From assembly GCA_947650365.1 (NCBI GenBank), contig OX393550.1, positions 114,492,032-114,556,031 of the forward strand: a stretch of 64,000 bases of DNA, given 5' to 3'. The stretch is from Chamaelirium japonicum (Eukaryota; Streptophyta; Magnoliopsida; Liliales; Melanthiaceae). A program made the position numbers and the translations under genes. Below the pieces are notes generated by a model that saw only the letters and a program-made list of their open reading frames with translations, did no database searches and was not told where the DNA came from. Each line of letters starts with the position of its first letter. Position 1 is the first letter of the stretch. Shown here piece by piece: positions 4,167-56,819 of this stretch.

Positions 4167-4584
4167 CTAAACCATTTCAAATCAAATGACATAAAAAGTG
4201 GTGTATATACAAAATTAATAAATGGAAGTCCATGCTTTCGATATGGTAGCCTGAAATATCTACTTAAATCCACCCAAAAGAACATTTGTAAATCTATGTG
4301 TAGAGCAACATATGCATACACATAAGAACTAGAGGAGTATATCCTCTTAAACTTTCAATGCACAAATAGTGATTAAATTTCAATCCAAAGATTTGAATAG
4401 TGAAAACATAAGCAAGTTGCAATATGTATCGATGAACTTCCAGTTTGGACCTGCAACAGTTGTTTGCGCAAGTGCATCAAGTTCTTTGAAGAAAAAAAAA
4501 GGGAACAAAAACAAGGTGGAAAGGAAATTCTTCATCTCATAGTTTCATCAACTAGTGTCAAACTAGAAGATCAAATGAACTTAC

Positions 4585-5065
4585 GGGTTACGCCAGAAGT
4601 GTTCTTTGCAGGAGAGAAGTGTTTATCACTTCTAGTTCTTTTGTCACACCTTGATCTAGTGTTGTGAATTCCACTCGCTGGTACTATTTGTGCAACATCG
4701 TCACTAGATCTGCTTGAATCACATTCAATTTTTTTGCTATGAGGATTCAAGATTTCAACAGAATGGCTCCTCTTTTCTCGATGCGTGGGATCATGATTCT
4801 TAACAGAATATGAAGATGCTTTCTCACAGCCTGTTTGATCAAACATCAAAACATCGAAGCGAGAATTCCCACTGTATTTGAAAACCAAAAGGTCATACTC
4901 CTCTATATGGTGATCTTTAATAAAATCGCTCCAACCAAATTGCAAAAATGTATTGTCTGGATCCTTTTCCAGCCCAACATGCCACATATTACCACTAGGA
5001 CCCTTCAGAATAACAACTGTTGAAAGGTCTTCTTTAAAATGATTGATGAACTTCTTCGGTACACT
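4585..5065 (-). pseudogene. REM copy 1, coding exon 2 (B3 domain 1)
   Basis: Acceptor GTAG precedes SVPKKFINHF and donor CCC-GTAAG follows. Length 481 (3n+1) fits the paralogues. It encodes the core of B3 domain 1 (WHVGLEKDP, GWSDFIKDHHIEE, DLLVFKYSGNS) and a basic Ser-rich linker. Confidence 0.85.
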
Positions 5066-6889: not shown

Positions 6890-7394
6890 TAGGGGTGGCA
6901 ATCGGGTCGGGTCGTGTCGTGTTCGTGTCGTGTATAGTCGTGTTCGTGTCCAAAAACCCCAGACCCGGACCCGACCCGTTTAACTAATCGTGTCTAGATC
7001 TTAAACCCGTACCCGACCCGCCAATAAACGGGTAGACCCGATAAGACCCGGTAAGACCCGTTTATCACCCGGACTATACAGTTGACCCGATCCAACCCAA
7101 TCCGACTCGACCCGACCTGACCCGAAAAACCCGCTAGTATTATATATTATAGTATCGGATTGCGGGTAGACCCGACCCGACCCGACCCGACTCGACACGA
7201 CCCGTTGAATACTAAACGGGTCTTCCCGGGTCTACCGTGTCCAGACCCTAAACCCGGACCCGACCCGTTTATTAAACGGGTCTATCGTGTCGACCCGTTT
7301 ACGACCCGAACCCGTTTAGCCCTGACCCAGACCCGCTAACTTCGTGTCGGGTCGTGTTGGGTCTGCCGTGTCGGGTCCGAAATTGCCAGCCCTA
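6890..7394. mobile_element. hAT-type MITE rich in GACCCG/CGGGTC
   Basis: Terminal inverted repeats are TAGGGGTGGCAAT and the complement of TAGGGCTGGCAATT. Perfect 8-bp target duplications CGTACGAT lie at 6882-6889 and 7395-7402. The body is almost wholly GGGTCGTG/GACCCGAC motifs in both orientations, so it can pair with itself many ways. It does not code; the short ORFs over it are by-products of the repeat. Confidence 0.85.
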
Positions 7395-12602: not shown

Positions 12603-12788
12603 CCTATCACTCTATAATATTTCTCTTTAGAGTATTTTCTCTCTCCATAATATTTTCTCTTTCTCTACGATATTTTATCTCTACAATATATTCTCTCTAT
12701 AATATTGACTCTCTACGATCTATATAACATGCTACGGCTGTTCACAAGCTAAATAGAATAAAAAGGCACGGAATAGATCCATTCGTCG

Positions 12789-13555: not shown

Positions 13556-16500
13556 GTGGGTCAACCACTGTGAGTTTGCGGATAAGAAACCAGAAACGAG
13601 GAGATGGATGACACTTCGTGAATAAGTCAGCAATCTGCTCCGTCGAAGAGACATAAGGCAAAGAGATGGTCCCAGCCTCATACTGCTCTCTAGAGAAATA
13701 ACAATCTAGTTCAATGTGCTTGGTCCGCTCATGAAACACCAGATTACTGACAATCTGAATAGCACTTTTGTTGTCACAATGAAGAGCAGTGGGACCCGAG
13801 GTATCAACACCAAGATCTCAAAGAAGACGGCAGAGATGAACGATCTTCTTTGTAGCAGTGGCCATGGCACGAAACTCAGCCTCAGTACTAGAGAGAGAAA
13901 CCACCTTCTGCTTTTTGCTCTTCCAGGAGATAAAAGAGTCACCAAGAAAAAGGCAGTAACCAGTAGTCGAGCGCCGAGTAGTTGGGTCCCCTGCCTAGTC
14001 GGCATCAGAGTATGCACAAAGAGCTAGAGAGGAGGATGACGAGAAGAAGAGCGACCGAGTGATAGTGCCACGAAGGTACCTAAGAGTCCGAAGAAGAGCA
14101 GCATAGTGAACAGAGTGAGGGGCATCCACAAACTGGCTGAGAATACTGGCAGCATGGGCAATATCCGGTCTGGTGATGCAGAGATAGACGAGCTGACCAA
14201 CTATCTCGCGGTACCTGGTAGGATCTGAGAGGGGCTCACCGTCAGTAGGGCGGAGTTTCACATGAAGTTCAAGAGGAGTGTCGACTGTACGACAATCAGA
14301 TAGTGCAGCCCGAGCAAGAATGTCAGCTGTGTACTTCTGCTGAGAAAGCAGAATTCCCCTAGTGCTCCTAGCAACCTCCAGGCCAAGAAAATAACGCAGA
14401 GGACCCAGATCCTTCATCTGAAATTAGCTCCGAAGATGCTCCTGAAGGGAGGCTATGGCACGGGTATCATCACCAGTAAGAATCATGTCATCGACATAGA
14501 GAAGGATGATGGCTCGACCATGGGGGGAAGTCCACACAAACATAGAATGGTCTTGAAACTCTCTACAAAGTCAATTTCAGTAACTGCCCGACGGAAACGC
14601 TCAAACCAGGCACGAGGAGCCTGTTTGAGGCCATAGATAGCTCGACAAAGACGATATACATGCTGCGGAGGTGTGTTGAGGCCCGGAGGAGGCTGCATAT
14701 AGACAACCTCAGAGAGATCACCGTGAAGAAAAGCATTATTCACATCCATCTGTAATAGGGACCAACCCTTAGCCGCAGCAACAGCGAAAAGAGTCCGAAT
14801 TGTGGTCATCTGAGCTACTGGAGCAAAGTCTCATCATAATCAATCCCATACTCCTGAGTGAAACCGCGAGCAACAAGACGGGCTTTGTACCGGTCAATAG
14901 AACCATCTGGGCGATGCTTGATCTTGAAGACCCATTTGCAGCTGATAAGCGCGATACCAGAGGTAGAGGCACAATGTCCCATGTATGAGTCTGCGCAAAA
15001 GCCTGAAATTCCTTAGCCATAGCCTGCTGCCACACAGGGTACTGCAATGCCTCTCTATAAGACCTAGGCTCTCTGTCTGTGTGAAGGGCAGTAAGGTAGG
15101 TAACGAACTGAGGCGAGTAGAAAGTGACAGCTGCAAAACCAAAGCGATCAGGGGAGTAGCCAAAGCGGTCGGAAGGGCGATGCTCACACTGGGGGTAGTG
15201 AGGAGGACTGTGAGGATCTGTATCCGGTAGAGGTAGGCTGCTCGAAGTGGATGGAGTACCAGAGGAGTCACTGACAGACGAAGACGGGACCGGTGGAATA
15301 TCGGATGGAGGATAAGCAGACATAGGAGATGAGGGATCCGAAGGAGATGAAGAACTCAAGCGTGTAGCAGGGATGACGACGGGAGCAGGAGGTAAAGACT
15401 CAAGAGCAAGAGCAGGAGGAGGAGCGGAGAAAGGAGGAGAAGGTGAAAGAGAAGGAGGCATCTCAAGGAAGAAAAGATCCTGAGACGCAGGAGAGTAGTA
15501 AGGAACATGTTCAACAAAAGTGACATGTCGAGAGATGCGAAGACGAGGAGCTAGGGGGTTATAGCAACGATACCCCTTGTGCTCAGAACTGATGCCCAAG
15601 AGTACACACTTAGTGGACCTAGCTGACAGTTTTTTACGCTCATTAGAAGGAAGGAGGACAAAACATATGCACCCAAAAGTACGCAACATGCTGTAATCAG
15701 GAGTCGTGCTATAGAGACGCTCATGAGGCGAAACACCTGCGAGGACAGAGGAAGGGGTGATGTTAATAAGGTTGACAGAGGTCAAAATGGCCTCTGCCCA
15801 GAAGGTGCGAGGAACGCACGAGGAGATAAACTGAGCACGAGCTGTCTCAATAATATGACGATGCTTTCGTTCTGCAACACCGTTCTGCTCATGAGTATGA
15901 GGACATGATTGTTGGAAAAGAGTCCCATGAGACTGAAGGATAGATTGCATTATAGAAGAGAGATATTCACGGGCACAATCGGATCTAAAAGTTTTAATAC
16001 GGGCATAAAACTGAGTATGAACCATGTTGGTGAAGGTCTGATAGATGTCGGGAATGTCAGAACGCTGACGAAGGAGATATACCCATGTAAAACGAGAATA
16101 ATCATCAATAAAGCTAACATAGTAAAAATAGCCATTCATAGAAGAAAGAGATGCATGACCCCAAATATCTGAGTGCACTAGATCAAACGGATTACAGGAC
16201 TGCGACAAACTAGTAGAAAAGGGGCTAGCAGAATGCTTAGCCAACTGACATCCTGTGCAAAAAGAAAGACGAGAGAATGAACCACAACCTAAAGCACCAG
16301 ATTGGAAAAGATTTTTAAGTCGAGATTCAGACACATGATCTAGCCTCCGATGCCACAGGTCGGCATCAGAAGAAACAACACTACAGACGACCAAAGAAGA
16401 GACATGAGGTAAATGAAGATACTCCAGGTGATATAGGCCACCAACCCTACGAGCAGCACCAATCCTCTGTCCCGAGTGTGAATCCTGCACAACACAAAAA

Positions 16501-16625
16501 GAGGGAGAGAAAGCAACTGTCAGATCGGAATCACAAAGGCTGCTAATAGAAATCAGGTTCATGCGAAGCTGAGGAGCATGTAGAACAAATGGTAAAGAGA
16601 GAAAGCCCGAAGTGATGGACCCAGT
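13551..16625 (-). pseudogene. copia pol relic (integrase, RT, RNase H)
   Basis: The frame shows CTGCQLAKHS (zinc-binding motif), the integrase core (HSDIWGHA, FIDDYSRFTWVY, HEQNGVAERKHRH), a Pro/Ser-rich spacer, RT (QMDVNNAFLHGDL, YGLKQAPRAW), RNase H (YSDAD) and the tail EQIADLFTKCHPSP. Lesions in reading order are one-base losses near 14961, 14826 and 14556, then TAA 14424-14426 (Gln in the first copia copy), TAG 13995-13997 (Trp in that copy) and TGA 13818-13820. None of these is shared with the element at the left edge of the window, so the two died independently. The final stop is TGA at 13551-13553. Confidence 0.9.
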
Positions 16626-25900: not shown

Positions 25901-28900
25901 TATTGTTGTTCTAAAACATCCAATTGCTATACTAATGACTAGAAATCCATTGAGAATGAGAAATTATTAGAAAATGGTGAACAGGGGATGGCGGGGGGTA
26001 TTAACTTCAAGCTACTGATGAGCTATACAGTAACCCGGGATACGCCGATACTTCGAAACAGGTGCCGTACCCATATCAGATACTTCCTGATACTCTGATA
26101 TGACCCGATATGGTGGGATACGTATCCGATACGACTAGAAAGTATCAGGATTTTTTTAAAAAAAGATCCGATATGCTGTGGATACGAGACCGATACGTCG
26201 GGATATGTATGGATGGCTATGTACTCCAAAATCCGAAAACCTGACCTGAACTAGACCGAAACTTTGGATATGGGTTTAAATTTTATACATAACGATTTGC
26301 TTAATGATATCATTTATATGTTTTATTTTTTGGATGATGCATGTGACACTAACTTTGTATTTTGTAAAGGATGATTAATGTTAATGTTTTTTGCTAGCGT
26401 TTTGAAATGGACGATGAATGTGACACTTGCGTAATGTTGTTAGTGTTACTTTTTTGTAATTAATGAATGTGACACTAGCTTTATATTTTTTAGTTGTATT
26501 GGATGCAAGTTATGTAATGAATGATGAATATGGTCATATTTAATTTTCAAACTATTCACTATTAATATTCTAACACAAAAAAATATTATATTTAATTATA
26601 TATATATACATAAAATAATAATAATAATAAATTACATACCATATCCCTGTCGTACTGCGTATCCTAGTTTTTCAAAAACCTACGTATCGCCGTATCCGTA
26701 TCCCCATATCCATATCGGTGCTTCCTAGACAATAACTCTAGAAGAATATAGATATTTAATTCTACATGATTTACACAAAATTTTGCTTGTGAATGCAAGT
26801 AGCAAAAGGATCTAACAGCAGAAAGTAAAGAAATTACTCTTAGTAATATCTAGTTAAGAACTAAATGGATTTATGATGAATAGGGAAAATATAGCAGCTC
26901 TTGAACTTACTAATCTGAATGACTTGCATAAATAGGTAGGCTGCATAACTGATAGGAAAGAAGGATTTCCCCGTTGAACTGCATCATTCAACTTCATTGC
27001 TTCTTTTTTTTCTCCATCAGTTAAATGTAACTTGTGCGATTTGTAGAAGGTTTCATGAGTAAGGTTCCCGTCTTCCGATCCATCAGATTCTTGCTTAATG
27101 TGATGCTTTGCACCTTTTGAACTCCAAAGATTTTCTCCTAACCATTTCATATCAAATGACATAAAAAATAGGGTGTCTACAAAATGTACCATCCTACATT
27201 TTTAATACAAAAACAGCGATAAAATTATAATCCATATATTTGGACAGTGAAAAGTGCATAAAGCAAGTTGCACACTGTGCCAATGAGCCTCCAATATGGA
27301 CTTGCAAGCAGTTGTTTGCACCAAAGTGCATTAGGTTCCTTTGAGAACGAAAAAAAAAATGATAAGCAAAAAAGAAAAGAGCGAAAATGAGATCCTTGGA
27401 ACAAATGTCATTAACATCTCATCACCTAGTGCTACAATAGAAAAGACGACTAAACTTACGAGTTCCGCCACATCTTTTCTTTTGACGAAAGAAGTGTTCA
27501 TTGCTTCTAGTTCTCTTGTAACGCCTTGACCCGAGATAGTGAATTCCGCTTGATGTCGTTCGGTTAGCCCTCGAGGAATTACAAGTCCGTGCTCGTGGTG
27601 TTGGTTGTACAATATCTTCATGAGAGCTGCTTGAATAACTCAATTCAGCTACATTGCGGTGAGATGATGTATTCAAACTTTCCACAGAATGGTCCCTCTT
27701 TTCTCGATTCTTTGAATCATGATTCTTAACAAAATACGAAGATGCTTTCTCACACCCAGAGCTATCAAACATTAAAACTTTGAAGCAAGAATTCCCATGG
27801 TACTTGAAGACCAATAGATCATGCTCCTCTATATGGTGATCACTAACAAATTGGCTCCACCCAGATTCTAGAGAAGCATCAACTGGATCCTTTACCAGTC
27901 CTATGTGCCATATGCTACCGGCAGGATTCTTCAAATCAACGGTACTGGAAAGGTCTCCTCTAAAATGGTTCACAAACTTCTTCGGTACTATCTGAAAAAC
28001 AATTGACACAATTTACACAAACAAATTGTCACATAAGACAACAATAAAAGTGAGAGAGGATCATCATCCAAGTTCTATCCCATCAAGATGGGTTCGACGA
28101 TAGAGAAGATTGACAAGAATTTTCTGGCCGTTTGTCGACATGGCGTCAACCCTATAAGATTGGTACCGAAAACCTGATCAAGGTAACTTGACAAGATTGG
28201 TTCATCCCAAGAAATCTAAGAGGCCCCTAGTTGTCGGATTGCCAGACCTACCTCGTAGGTTACACAGTTTAAGATCACACATCCAAGGACAAAAGTGAGA
28301 AAGATCACATACTAGAAATTAGAGATGCGGAAGTTTTCCGGGTCCGGCTATTTACAACACACATATTATTAGGGGAAGCACAATTGCCAGGGGCAGCTGC
28401 AGATTACCAAGGGCAGCACCTGCAATTTTGCTGCCCCTGGTAATCTCTGGTGCAAACCACCGCTTGCTGCCATAGCTCGTCGCTGCTGCTGCCCATGCCG
28501 GTTGCCGTCGAACCACCGGTCTAACCTGTGCGTATTGCCATCGGTCCGCCACCGCCCATCCTTCATCGTCGGTCCCATCTAATCCATCACCACCACTGCA
28601 TCCTCCTCCCCCCTCTTCTTCTTGTTCCTCTCATATCTTCTTCCTCGTCCTTCCTCCTTCCTTCTTCATCCTCCCCCCTCCCTCTTCCTCATGCTACACT
28701 CCCCCCTCCTTCTTCCTCATGCCCTCATCCATGGTGCAGCGGTAGGATAGGTTTTTTAATTTTTGTAAATGTGCTGTCCCTAGTAAACTCTGATGCAAAT
28801 AGCCGGACCCAAGTTTTACCCACACCGTTTTCCTTCAAAAAGTTTTACCCACCCCCCACACTTCTCCCTTCCCACCCAACACATTTTGTTTTTCGTCAAA

Positions 28901-38424: not shown

Positions 38425-39385
38425 ATACATGGGTCTACTTTGTAAAAGAGAAGTCATAAATATTATCAAAGTTTAAGAATTTAAGATGACAGAGGAAGGG
38501 TTTCTTAAGAGAAAAATTAAGTGCTTAAGGACTGATAATAAAGGAGAGTTTATCTCCGAGGAGTTCTTCTGCCAGATGAATGGTATTGATAAGGAAATTA
38601 CATGTGCCTACACACCTGAGCAAAATGGTGTCGTAGAAAGGAGGTTCAGATACATTGTGGAGACTTGCAAGCATAGGATATATGCCAAGAATTGACCTAA
38701 AGCCTTACAGGCAGAGGGTATGGCTTGTGCAGTCTAAGTGATTAATCGGGTGCCTCTTAGCATGATTGATATGAAGTCTCCTTATGAACTGATGTCTGAG
38801 AAGAAACCTAGTATGAAACACTTTAAAGTGTTTGGATCAATTTGCTATGTTCATGTGTCAGAAGCAAAAACAACCAAATTAGATGTTAAAGGTAAAAAAT
38901 GCATATTTATCGGTTATGATGAGAGAAAGAAGGGATGGAAGAGTATGGATCCTAAGACCCATAACTTCATGATTTCAAGATATGTTGTTTTCAACGAGGT
39001 CTCATCTTTCTATGGGAAGGAAGTAGCTTCCATTGGAGGTAGTGATGGTAGCACACATGTCAATATTCAGCCAAACGTACAAATAAGCTTACCTATGACT
39101 TCCAATGATCCTAATACATCTTCGGACTCTACTTCTAAAATAATAGGGGAGCAAAGCGACAAGGGGAGTGCAACTACCAGAAATCATCAACAAGTGGATG
39201 CTGACACAGAGGAGGCAGGTGAGAACAGAAGTCTTAGAAGATCAAAACATGAGAACCCAATCACATGTAAATGGGTTAACAAAGTGAAGCATAAGGTAGA
39301 TGGAAGTATAGACAGGTTCAAGGCACGGCTAATCGTCATGGGATTCTCTCAAAAATATAGAGAAGAATATGAAGAGTTAGTCTAG
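38425..39385 (+). pseudogene. copia integrase C-part and RT start, broken
   Basis: KCLRTDNKGEFISEEF, YTPEQNGVVERRF and FIGYDERKKGWKSMDP are integrase signatures. CKWVNKVKHKVDGSIDRFKA is the start of RT. Stops occur near 38694 and 38737. Confidence 0.85.
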
Positions 39386-49061: not shown

Positions 49062-49905
49062 TAGTAATGCCCGTGCCGCTCGGCACGCAAAAGATTTCGA
49101 GGGCGAGTACAACATTTTGAGGAAAGTGACAATACTTAAAAGGTGTCAAAAATATTTTTGTGGGAGGTGACAATATTTAGAGGGTAGAAAGAAAATATTG
49201 AGTGCGGCAAAAGATTTCGAGGCAAAAAATTTTGAGTGCACGCAAAAATTTTTGATGGAATTGCAAAAAATTTATAAAGCAGTGACAACACTACAAAAAA
49301 AACAGTTTTTACCGACGGCAAATATCCGTCGGTAAAGTTAGTTTTCCGTCGGTAAAGCTTTATCGCGACGGAAGTCATTTCCGTCGCTAGTCTGTCGGAA
49401 AAAAAGGCGTCGGGAAAAATCGGCGACGGACACAAAATATCCGTCGGTATTAATTATTAATACCGACGGATATTTTGTGTCCGTCGGTAATATATGAATA
49501 TTTAATAATAAATATAAAAGACTTTTGCCGACGGAATATTATTATCCGTCGGCAATATATAAGCTTTTTGCCGACGAAATATTACCTTCCGTCGGTAATA
49601 TATAAGGTTATTACCGACGGACGTTATAAATTCCGTCGTGAATATATAAATTATTTAAAAAAATAAAATAGATTATTACCGACGGAAATAATAATTTCCG
49701 TCGGCAAAAATACATAATTTTTTTTTAAAAAAATTACTTAAATAATATGTTTTAATTCCTGTGATTTATAACAATACAACAATATATTCAAATATTACCA
49801 TAATTGATTAAATCAACTATTACCATAATTTATCAAATATTACCGCAATTTATCAAATAATACCACAATATATTCAAATATTACCATAATTGACAAAATC
49901 AACTA

Positions 49906-50420
49906 TTACCGCAATTTATCAAATATTACCGCAAATTATCAAATATTACCACGATACCAGACAATTATAGACAAGACCAAAAAATGACTACATATTTATT
50001 ACAAAATTATTTTTACATAATCCAAAACTGAGGGAAGTTGCGTGCCCTATCTCAACCACCCCACGCCGCCCGGCACCAATACTGGTGCTCTCATCCCCTG
50101 ATGCTGCACATCCTGCAATTAACATGTATTTGTTAAAAAAATAGTTTATATTTATAATTGATAATTACCGCAATTTATCAAATATTACCGCAAATTATCA
50201 AATATTACCACGATACCAGACAATTATAGACAAGACCAAAAAATGACCACATATTTATTACAAAATTATTTTTACATAATCCAAAACTGAGGGAAGTTGT
50301 GTGCCCTATCTCAACCACCCCACGCCGCCCGGCACCAACACTGGTGCTCTCATCCCCTGATGCTGCACATCCTGCAATTAACATGTATTTGTTAAAAAAA
50401 TAGTTTATATTTATAATTGA
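49906..50420. repeat. 258-bp tandem duplication in CACTA element
   Basis: 49906-50162 and 50164-50420 are nearly identical (both contain ACCCCACGCCGCCCGGCACC and GATGCTGCACATCCTGC). Confidence 0.9.
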
Positions 50421-50422
50421 GA

Positions 50423-53217
50423 GTCTAAGCGTTGAAAAATCATAAGTTAGCGTGTTTCGGATTTGAAATATATTTGGATTCGATCGGATCGTCATCCGAT
50501 AATTTATACTTATAATTATTTTGTATTTTGGACTTGCGAGCGAGTTCTAATTAGAAATTTTAACAATTTATGCTCCGATTGACCCATTTATAGTCTAAGT
50601 GTTGAAAAATCATAAGTTAGCGTATTTCAGATTTGAAATATATTTGGATTCGATCGGATCGTTATCGGATCGGCATCCGATAATTTGTGCTTAGAATTAT
50701 TTCGTATTTCGGACTTGCGAGTGAGTTCTAATTGGATATTTTGACAATTTACGCTCTGATTGACCCATTTATAGTCTAAGCGTTGAAAAATCATAAGTTA
50801 GCGTGTTTCGGATTTGAAATTGCTTTGGATTCGATCGGATCGTCATCGGATCGGCATCCGATAATTTGTACTCGGAATTATTTTATATTTTAGACTTGTG
50901 AGCGAGTTCTAATTGGAAATTTTAACAATTTACGCTCTGATTTACCGATTTAGACTCTAAGCGTTGAAAAATCATAAGTTAGTGTGTTTCGGATTTAAAA
51001 TAGGTTTGGATTCGATCGAATCGTCATCGGATCGGCATCCGATAATTCGTACTTGGAATTTTTCCACATTTCGGACTTGCGAGCGAGTTCTAATTGGATA
51101 TTTTAACAATTCACGCTCCGATTGACCCATTTAGAGTCTAAACATTGAAAAATCATATGTTAGTGTGTTTCAGATTTGAAATAGGTTTGGATTCGATCGG
51201 ATCGGCATCCGATAATTTGTACTTAGAATTTTTTCCATATTTCGGACTTGCGAGTGAGTTCTAATTTGATATTTTAACAATTTACGCTCCGATTGACCGA
51301 TTTAGAGTCTAAGCGTTGAAAAATCATAAGTTAGCGTGTTTCGAATTTGAAATAGGTTTGGATTTGATTGGCTCGGCATCCGACAATTCGTACTTGGAAT
51401 TTTTCTGTATTTCGGACTTGCGAGCGAGTTCTAATTGGATATTTTAATAATTTACGCTCCAATTGACCGATTTAGTGTATAAGCCTTGAAAAATCATAAG
51501 TTAGCTTGTTTCGGATTTGAAATATGTTTGGATTCGATCGGATCGTCATCGGATCGGTATCCGATAATTCATACTTGGAATTTTTCCGTATTACGGACTT
51601 GCAAGCGAGTTCTAATTGGATATTTTAACAATTTACGCTCCGATTGACCCATTTAGAGTCTAAGCGTTGAAAAATCATAAGTTAGCATGTTTCGGATTTG
51701 AAATAGGTTTGGATTCGATCGGATCATCATCGGATCGGCATCCGATAATTTGTACTTGGAATTTTTCCATATTTCGGACTTGCGAGCGAGTTCTAATTGG
51801 ATATTTTAATAATTTACGCTCCGATTGACCGATTTAGAGTCTAAGCGTTGAAAAATCATAAGTTAGCGTGTTTCAGATTTAAAATAGGTTTGGATTCGAT
51901 CGGATCGGCATCCGACAATTCGTACTTAGAATTTTTCCGTATTTCGGACTTGCGAGCGAGTTCTAATTGGATAATTTAATAATTTATGCTCCGATTGATC
52001 GATTTAAAGTCTAAGCGTTGAAAAATCATAAGTTAGCGTGTTTTAGATTTGAAATAGATTTGGATTCGATCGGATCGGCATCCGACAATTCGTACTTGGA
52101 ATTGTTTCATATTTTGGACTTGCGAGTGAGTTCTAATTGGAAATTTTAACAATTTACGCTCCGATTGACCGATTTAGAGTCTAAGCGTTAAAAAATCATA
52201 AGTTAGCGTGTTTCGGATTTGAAATAGGTTTGGATTCGATCGGATCGTTATCGGATCGGTATCTGATAAATCGTACTTAAAATTTTTCCGTATTTCGGAC
52301 TTGCGAGGAAGTTCTAATTGGATATTTTAACAATTTACACTCCGATTGACCCATTTAGAGTCTAAGCGTTGAAAAATCATAAGTTAACGTGTTTCAGATT
52401 TGAAATAGGTTTGGATTCGATCGGATCGTCATCGGATCGGCATCCGATAATTCGTACTTGGAATTTTTCCGTATTTCATACTTGCGAGCGAGTTCTAATT
52501 GGATATTTTAATAATTTACGCTCCGATTGACCGATTTAGAGTCTAAGCGTTGAAAAATCATAAGTTAGCGTGTTTCAGATTTGAAATAGGTTTGGATTCG
52601 ATCGGATCGGCATCCAACAATTCGTACTTGGAATTTGAAATACGTTTGGATTCGATCGGATCAGCATCCGACAATTCGTACTTGGAATTTTTCCGTATTT
52701 CGGACTTGCGAGCGAGTTATAATTGGAAATTTTAACAATTTACGCTCCGATTGATCGATTTAGAGTCTAAGCGTTGAAAAATCTTAAGTTAGCATATTTC
52801 GGATTTGAAATAGGTTTGGATTCGATCGGATCGTCATCGGATCGGTATCCGATAATTCGTACTTAGAATTTTTCCGTATTTTGGACTTGCGAGCGAGTTC
52901 TAATTGGATATTTTTACAATTTACGCTCCGATTGACCAATTTAGAGTCTAAGCGTTGAAAAATCATAAGTTAGTGTCTTTCGGATTTGAAATAGGTTTGG
53001 ATTCGATCGGATCGGCATCCGACAATTCGTACTTGGAATTTTTCCATATTTCGGACTTGCGAGCGAGTTCTAATTGGATATTTTAACAATTTACGCTCCG
53101 ATTGACCGATTTAGAGTATAAGCGTTGAAAAATTATAAGTTAGCGTGTTTCGGATTTGAAATAGGTTTGGATTCAATCGGATCGTCATCGGATCGGTATC
53201 CGATAATTCGTACTTGG
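50423..53217. repeat. satellite array of 181/170-bp units
   Basis: The anchor GTTGAAAAATCATAAGTTAG recurs 16 times, at 50431, 50601, 50782, 50963, 51144, 51315, 51485, 51666, 51847, 52017, 52187, 52368, 52549, 52773, 52954 and 53124. Spacings are 181 or 170/171, with one of 224. The long unit has two 11-mers in tandem (CGGATCGTCAT, CGGATCGGCAT); the short unit has one. Confidence 0.95.
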
Positions 53218-53779
53218 CATATATACCTAACTCTCTATGGCATTCTCCCTATAATAAATTCTCTACATAACATTGTCCCTACAACATTCTCTACAATATT
53301 CTGAATAATGTTTCCTCTCTACTATATTTTCTATAATATATTCTCTATATAATGCTCTCAACTATATTCTTACTACATATATACACTCTACACTCCCCAA
53401 TACATCTTTCTACTACATTCTCTTTGTATAATCGTAAGAAGTACCGATTGCATGAGTGAATTTTAAATAATTTGCACTTACAAAGCTTCAGTCAAAGTTT
53501 ACCTGTATGCCAGCATGACTGCAGAGATAGAAATCGAACTCCGTTGGGTGGCATAATGTTGTGTCCACGACGGTTCCTGATCGAGCACAACTAACAATCA
53601 AATTACCTGCTCTACTCTAAAGATATAAAATCCATCCATTCCATTGCAGTACAATACCTACCCGGCAATATATTTCCACTTTGATCAGTTGAATCACGGT
53701 TTCCAACGAGGCACACGCCTAGCATGATTAAAAAATAAAATTTAATCATTTAAAATAAAAACAGAGGCTACATCATTAC
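53218..53779. other. CACTA interior, AT-rich with CTCTACAATATTCT-like repeats
   Basis: Repeated short CTCTATAATA motifs resemble 12600-12730. No gene is seen. Confidence 0.4.
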
Positions 53780-55580
53780 CTAACTCTAAACCTAAACCCT
53801 AAACCTGAACAGTAAACCTAACCCTAACCCTAATCCTAAACCTAAACCCTAAACATAACCCTAACCTAAACCTAACCCTAACCCTAATCCTAAACCTAAA
53901 CCTAAACCTAAACTCTAAACCCTAAACCTAAACCTAAACCTAAACCTAAACCTAAACTCTAAACCTAAACCGTAAACCTAACTCTAAACCTAAACCCTAA
54001 ACCTGAACAGTAAACCTAACCCTAACCCTAATCCTAAACCTAAACCCTAAACATAACCCTAACCTAAACCTAACCCTAACCCTAATCCTAAACCTAAACC
54101 TAAACCTAAACTCTAAACCCTAACCTAAACCTAAACCATAAACCTAAACTTAATCCAAAACTTAAACCATAAACCTAACCCTAATCCAAAACTTAAACCC
54201 TAAACCTAACCTAAACCCCACCCTAAACCCTAACATAAACCCTAAACCTAACCTAAAACCCATGCTAAACCCTAAACCTTAAACCCTAACAAATATACAC
54301 TTTCTGAAAATGAATGTATACTCGTTCTAATATACACTTTCTGAAGATGAATATATACTCATTCTAAAGACGAATATATACTTGTAGAGACCTTAGTTAA
54401 TATAGCAAATTATGGTGTCTAAAAACTATATTTTGCCCCCATTCAATTCAGTTTTGATAAGATAAAAATTACCAAATGAGGGAATTAAGTAGATGACAAA
54501 AGGGGTATTGTGCTAACATTTCAAACTTTAGGATGCGATTTGGAACAAAATAAACTGAATCCTAATCTAAATCCTAAACCTAAACCCTAAACCTAATATA
54601 AACCCTTACCTAAACCTAAACCGTAAACCTAACTCTAAACCTAAACCCTAAACCTGAATAGTAAACCTAACCCTAACCCTAATCCTAAACCTAAACCCTA
54701 AACATAACCCTAACCCTAACCCTAATCCTAAACCTAAACCTAAACCTAAACTCTAAACCCTAACCTAAACCTAAACCATAAACCTAAACCATAAACCTAA
54801 ACTTAATCCAAAACTTAAACCCTAAACCTAACCCTAATCCAAAACTTAAACCCTAAACCTAACCTAAACCCCACCCTAAACCCTAACATAAGCCCTAAAC
54901 CTAACCTAAAACCCATGCTAAACCCTAAACCTTAAACCCTAACAAATATACACTTTTTGAAAATGAATGTATACTCTTTCTAATATACACTTTCTGAAGA
55001 TGAATATATACTCATTCTAAAGACGAATATATACTTGTAGGGACCTTAGTTAATATAGCAAATTATGGTGTCTAAAAACTATATTTTGCCCCCATTCAAT
55101 TCAGTTTTGATAAGATAAAAATTACCAAATGAGGGAATTAAGTAGATGACAAAAGGGGTATTGTGCTACATTTCAAACTTTAGGATGCGATTTGGAACAA
55201 AATAAACTGAATCCTAATCTAAATCCTAAACCTAAACCCTAAACCTAATATAAACCCTTACCTAAACCTAAACCGTAAACCTAACTCTAAACCTAAACCC
55301 TAAACCTGAACAGTAAACCTAACCCTAACCCTAATCCTAAACCTAAACCCTAAACATAACCCTAACCTAAACCTAACCCTAACCCTAATCCTAAACCTAA
55401 ACTCTAAACCCTAACCTAAACCTAAACCATAAACCTAAACTTAATCCAAAACTTAAACCCTAAACCTAACCCTAATCCAAAACTTAAACCCTAAACCTAA
55501 CCTAAACCCCACCCTAAACCCTAACATAAGCCCTAAACCTAACCTAAAACCCATGCTAAACCCTAAACCTTAAACCCTAA
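53780..55580. repeat. degenerate telomere-like repeats in 640-650-bp higher-order units
   Basis: Tracts of CCCTAAA/CCTAAA and variants at 53780-54295, 54555-54950 and 55210-55585 alternate with a unique segment (ATATACACTTTCTGAAGATG to GGAACAAAATAAACTGAATC). The landmark CATGCTAAACCC at 54261, 54914 and 55552 gives periods of 653 and 638. It is interstitial, lying within the CACTA element. Confidence 0.92.
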
Positions 55581-55845
55581 CAAATATACACTTTCTGAAA
55601 ATGAATGTATACTCTTTCTAATATACACTTTCTGAAGATGAATATATACTCATTCTAAAGACGAATATATACTTGTAGGGACCTTAGTTAATATAGCAAA
55701 TTATGGTGTCTAAAAACTATATTTTGCCCCCATTCAATTCAGTTTTGATAAGATAAAAATTACCAAATGAGGGAATTAAGTAGATGACAAAAGGGGTATT
55801 GTGCTAACATTTCAAACTTTAGGATGCGATTTGGAACAAAATAAA

Positions 55846-56260
55846 CTAAGGAGGAGAGGGAGGAGGAGGAGGAGCTCACCGGAGATGGAGAGGGAGGCCT
55901 CGAGGAGGAGGAGGAGGAGCAGTGGCGCCAGCGGAGAGGACGTCGAGCAGCGTCGCCGGTCGGTGGCGCCAGCGGAGAGGACGTCGAGCAGCGTCGCCGG
56001 TCGGTGGCACGCGGAAGGGGAGGGGAGGGGTGACTGGAGGCACGAGAGAGAGGAGGGGTGGTCGGAGGCGCAAGGGAGGGGAGGGGTGGCCGGCCGGAGG
56101 CACGCGAGGGAGGGAAGGAAGGCCGGGGAGGGGGGGGGGGGGAATTAGATCGAGAGAGATAGGGGAGGGAGGCCGGGGAGGGGGGGGGGGGGGGAATTAG
56201 ATCGAGAGAGATAGGGGAGGGAGGCCGGGGAGGGGGGGGGGATATCATATTTAGATCGAA
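55846..56260. repeat. G-rich block with short tandem duplications
   Basis: GGTGGCGCCAGCGGAGAGGA followed by CGTCGAGCAGCGTCGCC occurs twice (55921-56010). A unit with GAATTAGATCGAGAGAGATA and a run of G is repeated about three times (56120-56250). The Arg/Gly and Pro/Ser ORFs here are composition artefacts. Confidence 0.8.
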
Positions 56261-56819
56261 ACAGAAAGGGGGATCGGGGAAGCTTATAAAATCGCAGGGT
56301 TTTTACCGACGGACAGTATAAATTCCGTCGTTATAAAATCGCTGGGTTTTTACCGACGAACAGTATAAATTCCGTCGGTAAAAAGTAGTTTTATACCGAC
56401 GATTACTCTTTTTTCGTTGGTAATTAAAATGGCAAAAATAAATTAAAATTTATATATTAATATTACCGACAGAATTAACCTTAACCGTCGGTAATATAAG
56501 TTATACCGACGGATATATAGTTACCGTCGGTAAAAATAAACGAAAAAAAAATAGCAAAATAAAAAAAATATTATTACCGACGGACTTGTGTATTACCGTC
56601 GATAATAACATGTATTCCCGACGGAAGTAATATTTTCCGTCGATAAAGGTATATTACAGACGGCTAATATATAACTGTCGGTAATAAATATGAAAAAAAA
56701 ATTAAAAAAATCAAAGTATTATTACCGACGGAAATTATTATTACCGTCGGTAAAATATATATTATTACCGACGGTAATCGAAATTTCCGTCGGTAAAAAC
56801 GCTATTTCTTGTAGTGCAA

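Follow-up and report, generated by a model that had tools for sequence, protein, structure and literature searches.

A non-autonomous CACTA element of Chamaelirium japonicum carrying a satellite array, an Argonaute fragment and telomere-like units

A stretch of 64,000 nucleotides of the Chamaelirium japonicum genome (assembly GCA_947650365.1, contig OX393550.1, positions 114,492,032 to 114,556,031), referred to here as the window, contains a complete non-autonomous CACTA element of 7528 bp at 49289–56816. The element begins with CACTACAA and ends with TTGTAGTG, as CACTA-type terminal inverted repeats (TIRs), and is flanked by the 3-bp target site duplication (TSD) CAA. Short subterminal repeats, ACCGACGG (n = 9) and CCGTCGGT (n = 10), occur in both directions and within the window are confined to the two ends of the element. 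CACTA-initial TIRs, a 3-bp TSD and subterminal repeats place the element in the CACTA superfamily, in agreement with an earlier first-pass annotation of the window. The interior holds, from left to right, two direct 259-bp copies, a satellite, a short segment, three telomere-like blocks with spacers and a G-rich block (Table 1), and the satellite and G-rich block that the annotation had described were both recovered. The longest open reading frames of the element, of 180, 122 and 116 amino acids, all lie in the G-rich block, and a frame of 113 amino acids is found at 50208–50546. When the tnp2 region of an enzyme-bearing relative (L025+L029, see below) was compared with the window by blastn (E ≤ 1e-6), only its leader part matched, consistent with the annotation's statement that no transposase is recognisable; the frames of the element were not scanned with Pfam for a transposase. 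The element is thus very probably an En/Spm, tnp2-type CACTA that has lost its enzyme and carries a satellite, an Argonaute remnant and a telo-box array as one block.

Table 1 Features of the CACTA element and their positions in the window.
Feature	Position	Strand	Remarks
TSD CAA, left copy	49286–49288		Equal 3-bp TSDs in 15 of 15 complete copies
Left terminus (3' end by the direction of tnp2): CACTACAA TIR and ACCGACGG/CCGTCGGT subterminal repeats	49289–49760		At least 22 subfamily loci
Two direct 259-bp copies, resembling the last exon/3' untranslated region of a lost gene	49905–50420	-	Putative, assigned by eye
Satellite array, 15 full monomers of 170–224 bp, main period 181 bp	50420–53217 (approx.)	+	
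Captured host Argonaute fragment, introns included, internally deleted	53230–53778	-	
Argonaute exon, intron borders kept	53503–53576	-	
Preceding Argonaute exon, remnant ..GNRDSTDQSGNILPG	53662–53719	-	
Three higher-order units, each a degenerate CCTAAA/CCCTAA(A) block and a ~270-bp spacer	53778–55848	+	Blocks start at 53778, 54560 and 55213
Leader of the lost tnp2 gene; contains the G-rich block, which is C-rich on the sense strand	55708–56284	-	G-rich block at ~55848–56284
Right terminus (5' end): subterminal repeats and TIR ending TTGTAGTG	56284–56816		
TSD CAA, right copy	56817–56819		

The whole assembly (1.52 Gb in 3253 contigs, with contigs C1–C12 of 70–137 Mb) was searched with the left end of the element and with its cargo, along the lines that the annotation had proposed. 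For each genome query 40 candidates were scored, and all copy numbers are lower bounds. The left-end query yielded 40 loci (40 of 2927 candidates scored), comprising 21 at 99–100%, one on C8 (L022) at 96%, L023 at 96% and 17 at 91–93%. The first 22 of these, a limit set by the distance of the element ends, define the window subfamily, which thus has at least 22 loci, the 21 at 99–100% and the C8 copy at 96%, spread over 11 of the 12 contigs C1–C12 and four small contigs. Seventeen of the 22 were read (the window, L009–L022, L034 and L035), and every one of them holds both the satellite and the telomere-like blocks. Among the remainder, C7:47992 and C7:69288 gave satellite matches, while C183, C257 and C1:136088 gave matches to the Argonaute and spacer queries only. 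The first fetch consisted of 20 stretches of 10 kb (L009–L028), making 21 loci with the window; L029–L035 were chosen later for specific reasons, and L001–L008, short stretches at loci already covered, are excluded from every count. Both ends were present in 15 of the 21 first-fetch loci, including L023 and L024, which are older relatives outside the 22. Excluded from the 15 are L009, L015, L025, L026, L027 and L028, where both ends did not fall within the stretch; L025 was completed with L029.

L025 and L029 together constitute an 11.84-kb CACTA element with AAT duplications. Its minus-strand frames contain Transpos_assoc (PF13963, E = 4.5e-16) and Transposase_21 (PF02992, E = 3.9e-54), the latter identifying the tnp2 gene of autonomous CACTA members, and further frames on the same strand contain DUF4218 (PF13960, E = 4.3e-30) and DUF4216 (PF13952, E = 1.9e-12). 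Upstream of the first tnp2 frame lies homology to half of the window spacer (90.0–90.9%) and to the G-rich block, with the leader matching the window at 90.9% over 55708–55916 and at 84.8% over 56039–56222. Judged by the orientation of tnp2 and this leader homology, the window element has its 5' end on the right, and its G-rich block is the counterpart of the leader of the lost tnp2 gene. The 181-bp satellite of L025 is located between the tnp2 frames and the left (3') end, a position showing that the satellite predates the loss of tnp2. The annotation had proposed that arrays stand in place of a transposase; this does not hold for the satellite, which the enzyme-bearing relative has alongside tnp2, but does hold for the telomere-like units, which together with the Argonaute fragment replaced tnp2.

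In the window the satellite spans 2.7 kb, with monomer lengths of 170, 181, 181, 181, 171, 170 ... 224, 181 and 170 bp, and the same series, exact or with single-monomer differences, was found in most window-type copies. Monomers of the window are 98.2–100% identical to those of the same rank in L010, L016 and L019 and 95.6–99.4% in L021; the best other monomer of their own array reaches at most 95.6%. This retention of monomer order between copies indicates that the satellites are not separate insertions. Array length varies in a minority of copies, being 2124 bp in L012 (cut short), 3452 bp in L014 and 4609 bp in L009 (both extended), and ~1.1 kb in L034. The satellite is thus transposon-borne, its tandem monomers occupying the same place in several copies. 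All 21 satellite loci of the first fetch have the last-exon-like segment no more than 300 bp from the array; in L021–L028 this segment is single-copy.

The 401-bp satellite query gave at least 251 matches at about 36 loci by manual grouping (40 of 4990 candidates scored). A related 181-bp array (~82–86%) was found as short arrays at at least 37 places by manual count (40 of 2117 candidates scored), of which one was read in context; the arrays among the matches listed are all short and dispersed. The array read in context is the one into which the L013 copy is inserted (L031+L013+L032). It is 82–86% related and lies between two L025-like blocks, the second of which covers tnp2 coding sequence (88.8% over 1956 bp). 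A stretch of 19 kb was read here and shows no CACTA ends. From these blocks we infer that the array is part of a further CACTA element. The same site shows one forward and one inverted 181-bp block, followed downstream by 119-bp and 43-bp arrays.

These related arrays bear on a different origin of the satellite, namely that it was an independent genomic satellite captured by the CACTA family much as the Argonaute piece was. Short related arrays at no fewer than 37 places, and the finding that the one read is flanked left and right by tnp2 homology yet has no CACTA ends across 19 kb, lend this origin some weight. We nevertheless consider it unlikely, since the array adjoins the last-exon-like segment in all 21 first-fetch satellite loci and in L033–L035, is placed in L025 downstream of tnp2 and before the 3' end, and in L026 runs into the same post-satellite sequence as in L025 (90.7% over 540 bp), the L026 stretch ending before tnp2 coding is reached. 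A satellite that is a component of the family is preferred. The annotation's suggestion that such an element could seed satellites at new places is supported insofar as transposition disperses short arrays, but the matches listed give no sign of expansion into a large free satellite.

Not noted in the annotation, an Argonaute fragment occupies the segment between the satellite and the telomere-like block, with two Piwi-domain exons on the minus strand and intact GT/AG borders (PF02171, E = 4.1e-10; best solved structure in the PDB, AtAGO10). Piwi exons with conserved splice borders identify an AGO1/5/10-like Argonaute gene, which we take to be AGO5/MEL1-like. The orientation of the piece is that of tnp2. 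L024 has a tnp2 exon (STNRRKKNVSAKVLIYFPLRDRLQRLFMSSKTAD) and, behind it, four Argonaute exons together with their introns, which lead directly into the satellite. These exons derive from a host gene close to C2:90,735,900 (L030), the donor, from which a stretch at approximately 2587–3603 of L030 was copied; the main copied pieces are 87–92% identical to the donor, and the part common with the window query 95%. Joined end to end, the donor exons align with AtAGO10 along all 113 residues (E = 3.6e-55), and an additional exon of the donor was found next to the copied stretch. More exons on both sides of this stretch, recognised by eye, are presumably Argonaute as well. A non-autonomous element with a host gene fragment and a donor elsewhere in the genome corresponds to a Pack-CACTA element.

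Capture joints are visible in L024, L023 and L027. The window copy lost most of the captured exons, with one joint at a short TGGAA repeat. The Argonaute query matched at least 40 places (40 of 689 candidates scored): 18 of window type at ~99–100%, L023 at 97%, nine of L024 pattern, 11 of L027 pattern and the donor. The 20 matches of L024 and L027 type are named by match pattern, only L024 itself having been read. Within the window subfamily the Argonaute piece is present in 18 of 22 loci and lacking in L012 (C414), L021 (C11), L022 (C8) and L035 (C6). An older age of L021 and L022 was rejected as an explanation for its absence there, given that the more distant L023, L024 and L027 have the piece. 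Both copies show a short-repeat joint and likely lost the piece secondarily, although the bootstrap of the tree is unsettled. Two observations concern the captured sequence more generally: part of the captured intron and exon is duplicated in tandem at ~6430–6620 of L024 (oriented), and a CTCTACAATATT-type microsatellite at 12610–12716 of the window resembles the intron tail of the captured piece.

About half of the spacer in each telomere-like unit is homologous to the tnp2 leader. Divergence among the spacers of 41 units is only ~0.35%, whether they come from one copy or from different copies. The higher-order array described by the annotation was thus recovered as three blocks with ~270-bp spacers, but its repeats are degenerate: no two adjoining perfect CCCTAAA units occur in the three window blocks, and the longest run in 15 copies is of one to two units. 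Perfect tandem heptamers of the plant telomere repeat (TTTAGGG)n being absent from these blocks, the term telomere-like applies only loosely. Complete window-type copies contain one to four units, with one in L011 and L020 and four in L017, L021 and L022. L024 and L027 have one short block of 0.26–0.34 kb and L023 and L033 have two blocks; all four retain two small tnp2 pieces. Elsewhere in the window, 30419–30562 matches the second half of the unit's spacer at 85–86%. A second CACTA element at this position was considered and rejected, as homology is limited to the spacer-like stretch, which is not bracketed by paired CACTA ends; the match is probably a dispersed repeat, a piece of which sits in the CACTA leader.

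The window copy contains 29 telo-boxes (AAACCCTA), all on the plus strand, at a density of 3.9 per kb compared with 0.11 per kb outside the element; the 15 copies have 8–39 each, always on one strand. According to excerpts of PMC10167121, one telo-box is sufficient for TRB proteins to bind in vitro, and Polycomb repressive complex 2 (PRC2) is recruited by telo-boxes. TRB binding to the element is therefore plausible by analogy. If such binding were functional, the cargo might be under selection, with the telo-box arrays drawing TRB and Polycomb proteins to new sites and small RNAs from the Argonaute piece acting on the host Argonaute gene, helping the element to escape or redirect silencing; it would then be a mobile, self-spreading chromatin cassette. 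The one-stranded enrichment of the boxes, the reported binding and recruitment, and the sense orientation of the Argonaute piece relative to tnp2 are in line with this idea. We regard it as very unlikely, however, since the four of 22 copies without the Argonaute piece amplified too, and the number of telomere-like units varies from one to four.

Evidence for transposition came from the insertion sites. Equal 3-bp TSDs flank all 15 complete copies of the first fetch, with 14 different triplets among them, and matching TSDs were also found around L025+L029 and L035 (CCG). The flanks of the 15 copies (400 bp on the left and 800 bp on the right) gave no inter-copy match at E 1e-10. The L013 and L017 insertions sit in tandem arrays, and uninterrupted forms of the target are present in the adjacent sequence, six for L013 and 22 for L017, with at most three mismatches. 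The ends of the 13 complete window-type copies (12 and the window) show a mean pairwise difference of 0.9%, and 29 of 45 variable columns are singletons. This high identity could also be expected of segmental duplications of one locus, but the unmatched flanks, the diversity of TSDs and the uninterrupted targets in the flanking arrays render that explanation highly improbable. The low end divergence and mostly singleton variants instead fit a young burst, and the window element fits a member of a recently amplified subfamily.

The idea that the two ends belong to different CACTA families was tested and rejected. A single end letter is altered in L012 (right) and in L015 (left). L015 is a window-type copy with its first base changed (AACTACAA) and its right half missing or interrupted. 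In L011, the window-type copy is followed, ~230 bp past its right end, by another CACTA left end (84.7%), which begins at 6912 and has a 181-bp array of its own.

The annotation had named separate insertion of the satellite and the telomere-like arrays into one copy as a finding that would overturn its view. Later, independent insertion of this kind can be practically dismissed: each module has its own joint but no support for such insertions was found, and both arrays occur in the same order, with kept monomer order and matching TSDs, in 15 of 15 complete copies at different sites, while the joint between satellite and telomere-like array differs in L012, L021 and L022, where the Argonaute piece is lost, and in the older L023 and L024.

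The copies suggest a very probable course of events. The ancestor was an enzyme-bearing CACTA in which the 181-bp satellite already stood downstream of tnp2, before the 3' end. One lineage then had ~1 kb of the host Argonaute gene substituted for the 3' part of tnp2, perhaps through repair of a break in tnp2 with a template switch to the Argonaute locus, a route to which a 3-bp overlap at the joint faintly points. A telomere-like block near the tnp2 leader multiplied into higher-order units, whose copy number could have changed through slippage or unequal exchange. Deletion removed the greater part of tnp2 and of the Argonaute exons but kept both ends, and the derivative may have been moved in trans by the transposase of related elements, its cargo moving together to new sites.

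Several points weigh against this account of the element. Five of the 22 subfamily loci are known from query matches alone. The sequence common to L025 tnp2 and the donor at the left joint of the capture is no more than TGA, located a few bases ahead of the donor intron border. With regard to the origin of the telomere-like block, L025 has no such block, with zero and two CCTAAA on its two strands. The tnp2 gene of L025+L029 is represented by individual frames and may not be intact. The ends of this element are 21% diverged from the window copy, so that the transposase of the burst is assigned only broadly to related elements. The tree behind the order of events has an unsettled bootstrap and open forks.

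Catoni et al. 2019 reportedly dealt with Pack-CACTA, or transduplicating CACTA, elements. CACTA elements with satellites, such as Jozin, or with gene fragments, such as Pack-CACTA, are already known. Excerpts of PMC8978399 describe Jozin from Chenopodium quinoa as a CACTA-like element with a 171-bp satellite between the coding region and the 3' end, and report captured fragments of Neprosin and AP2 genes in Chenopodium CACTA elements. Jozin and the family described here are thus alike in being of tnp2 type, in the position of the satellite and in holding host gene fragments. In those excerpts, the satellite-bearing Jozin elements keep Transposase_21, whereas the element in the window is a deleted derivative in which a 181-bp satellite, a telomere-like array and an Argonaute piece are combined; the string "telomer" is absent from the main text of the Jozin paper. 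CACTA-born satellites, including CficCl-61-40 of Chenopodium and, as cited there, Atenspm of Arabidopsis and Afa/TM-2 of Triticeae, share the link between CACTA and satellite, with monomers derived from tnp2 or internal CACTA sequence (excerpts of PMC7320549). The satellite found here differs in that blastn of the tnp2 and leader region of L025 gave no match to the window satellite.

Capture of host gene fragments by Pack-CACTA elements is established (excerpts of PMC13317346), and the likeness extends to a non-autonomous CACTA with a host gene fragment, here with introns included. Additional to Pack-CACTA are the satellite and telomere-like arrays, Argonaute as the captured gene, and, in older copies, the fusion of the fragment to a preceding tnp2 exon. 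Interstitial telomeric repeats (excerpts of PMC9498494 and PMC10167121) are similar in their CCCTAAA-type units away from chromosome ends and their many telo-boxes; here, by contrast, the repeats are degenerate, of higher order and in a mobile element, without long perfect arrays. Among the papers listed from the open-access literature searched, none reported CACTA elements with telomere-like repeats or Argonaute capture by CACTA elements, and these features are accordingly taken as new, along with the traceable and unusually complete series of intermediates.

The remainder of the window contains two open reading frames with B3 DNA-binding domains (PF02362), both on the minus strand, at 4571–5065 (E = 2.3e-16) and 27422–28012 (E = 2.5e-16). 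They are alike by eye and are perhaps local paralogues. Pieces of Copia-type retrotransposons lie at 764–2212 (+; RVT_2), 14769–16625 (-; rve, gag_pre-integrs and SH3) and 38738–39385 (+; SH3).

One genome thus holds a series from a satellite-bearing, enzyme-encoding CACTA, through Argonaute-capturing intermediates with tnp2 remnants, to the 22 or more loci of a young burst, and this series shows stepwise how a mobile element gathers and spreads such DNA. The element is an example of a DNA transposon that disperses short satellite arrays and telo-box-rich, telomere-like DNA as a block. The family would provide a natural test of the effect of such cargo on chromatin at new sites, and of small RNAs from a transposon directed against a captured silencing gene.

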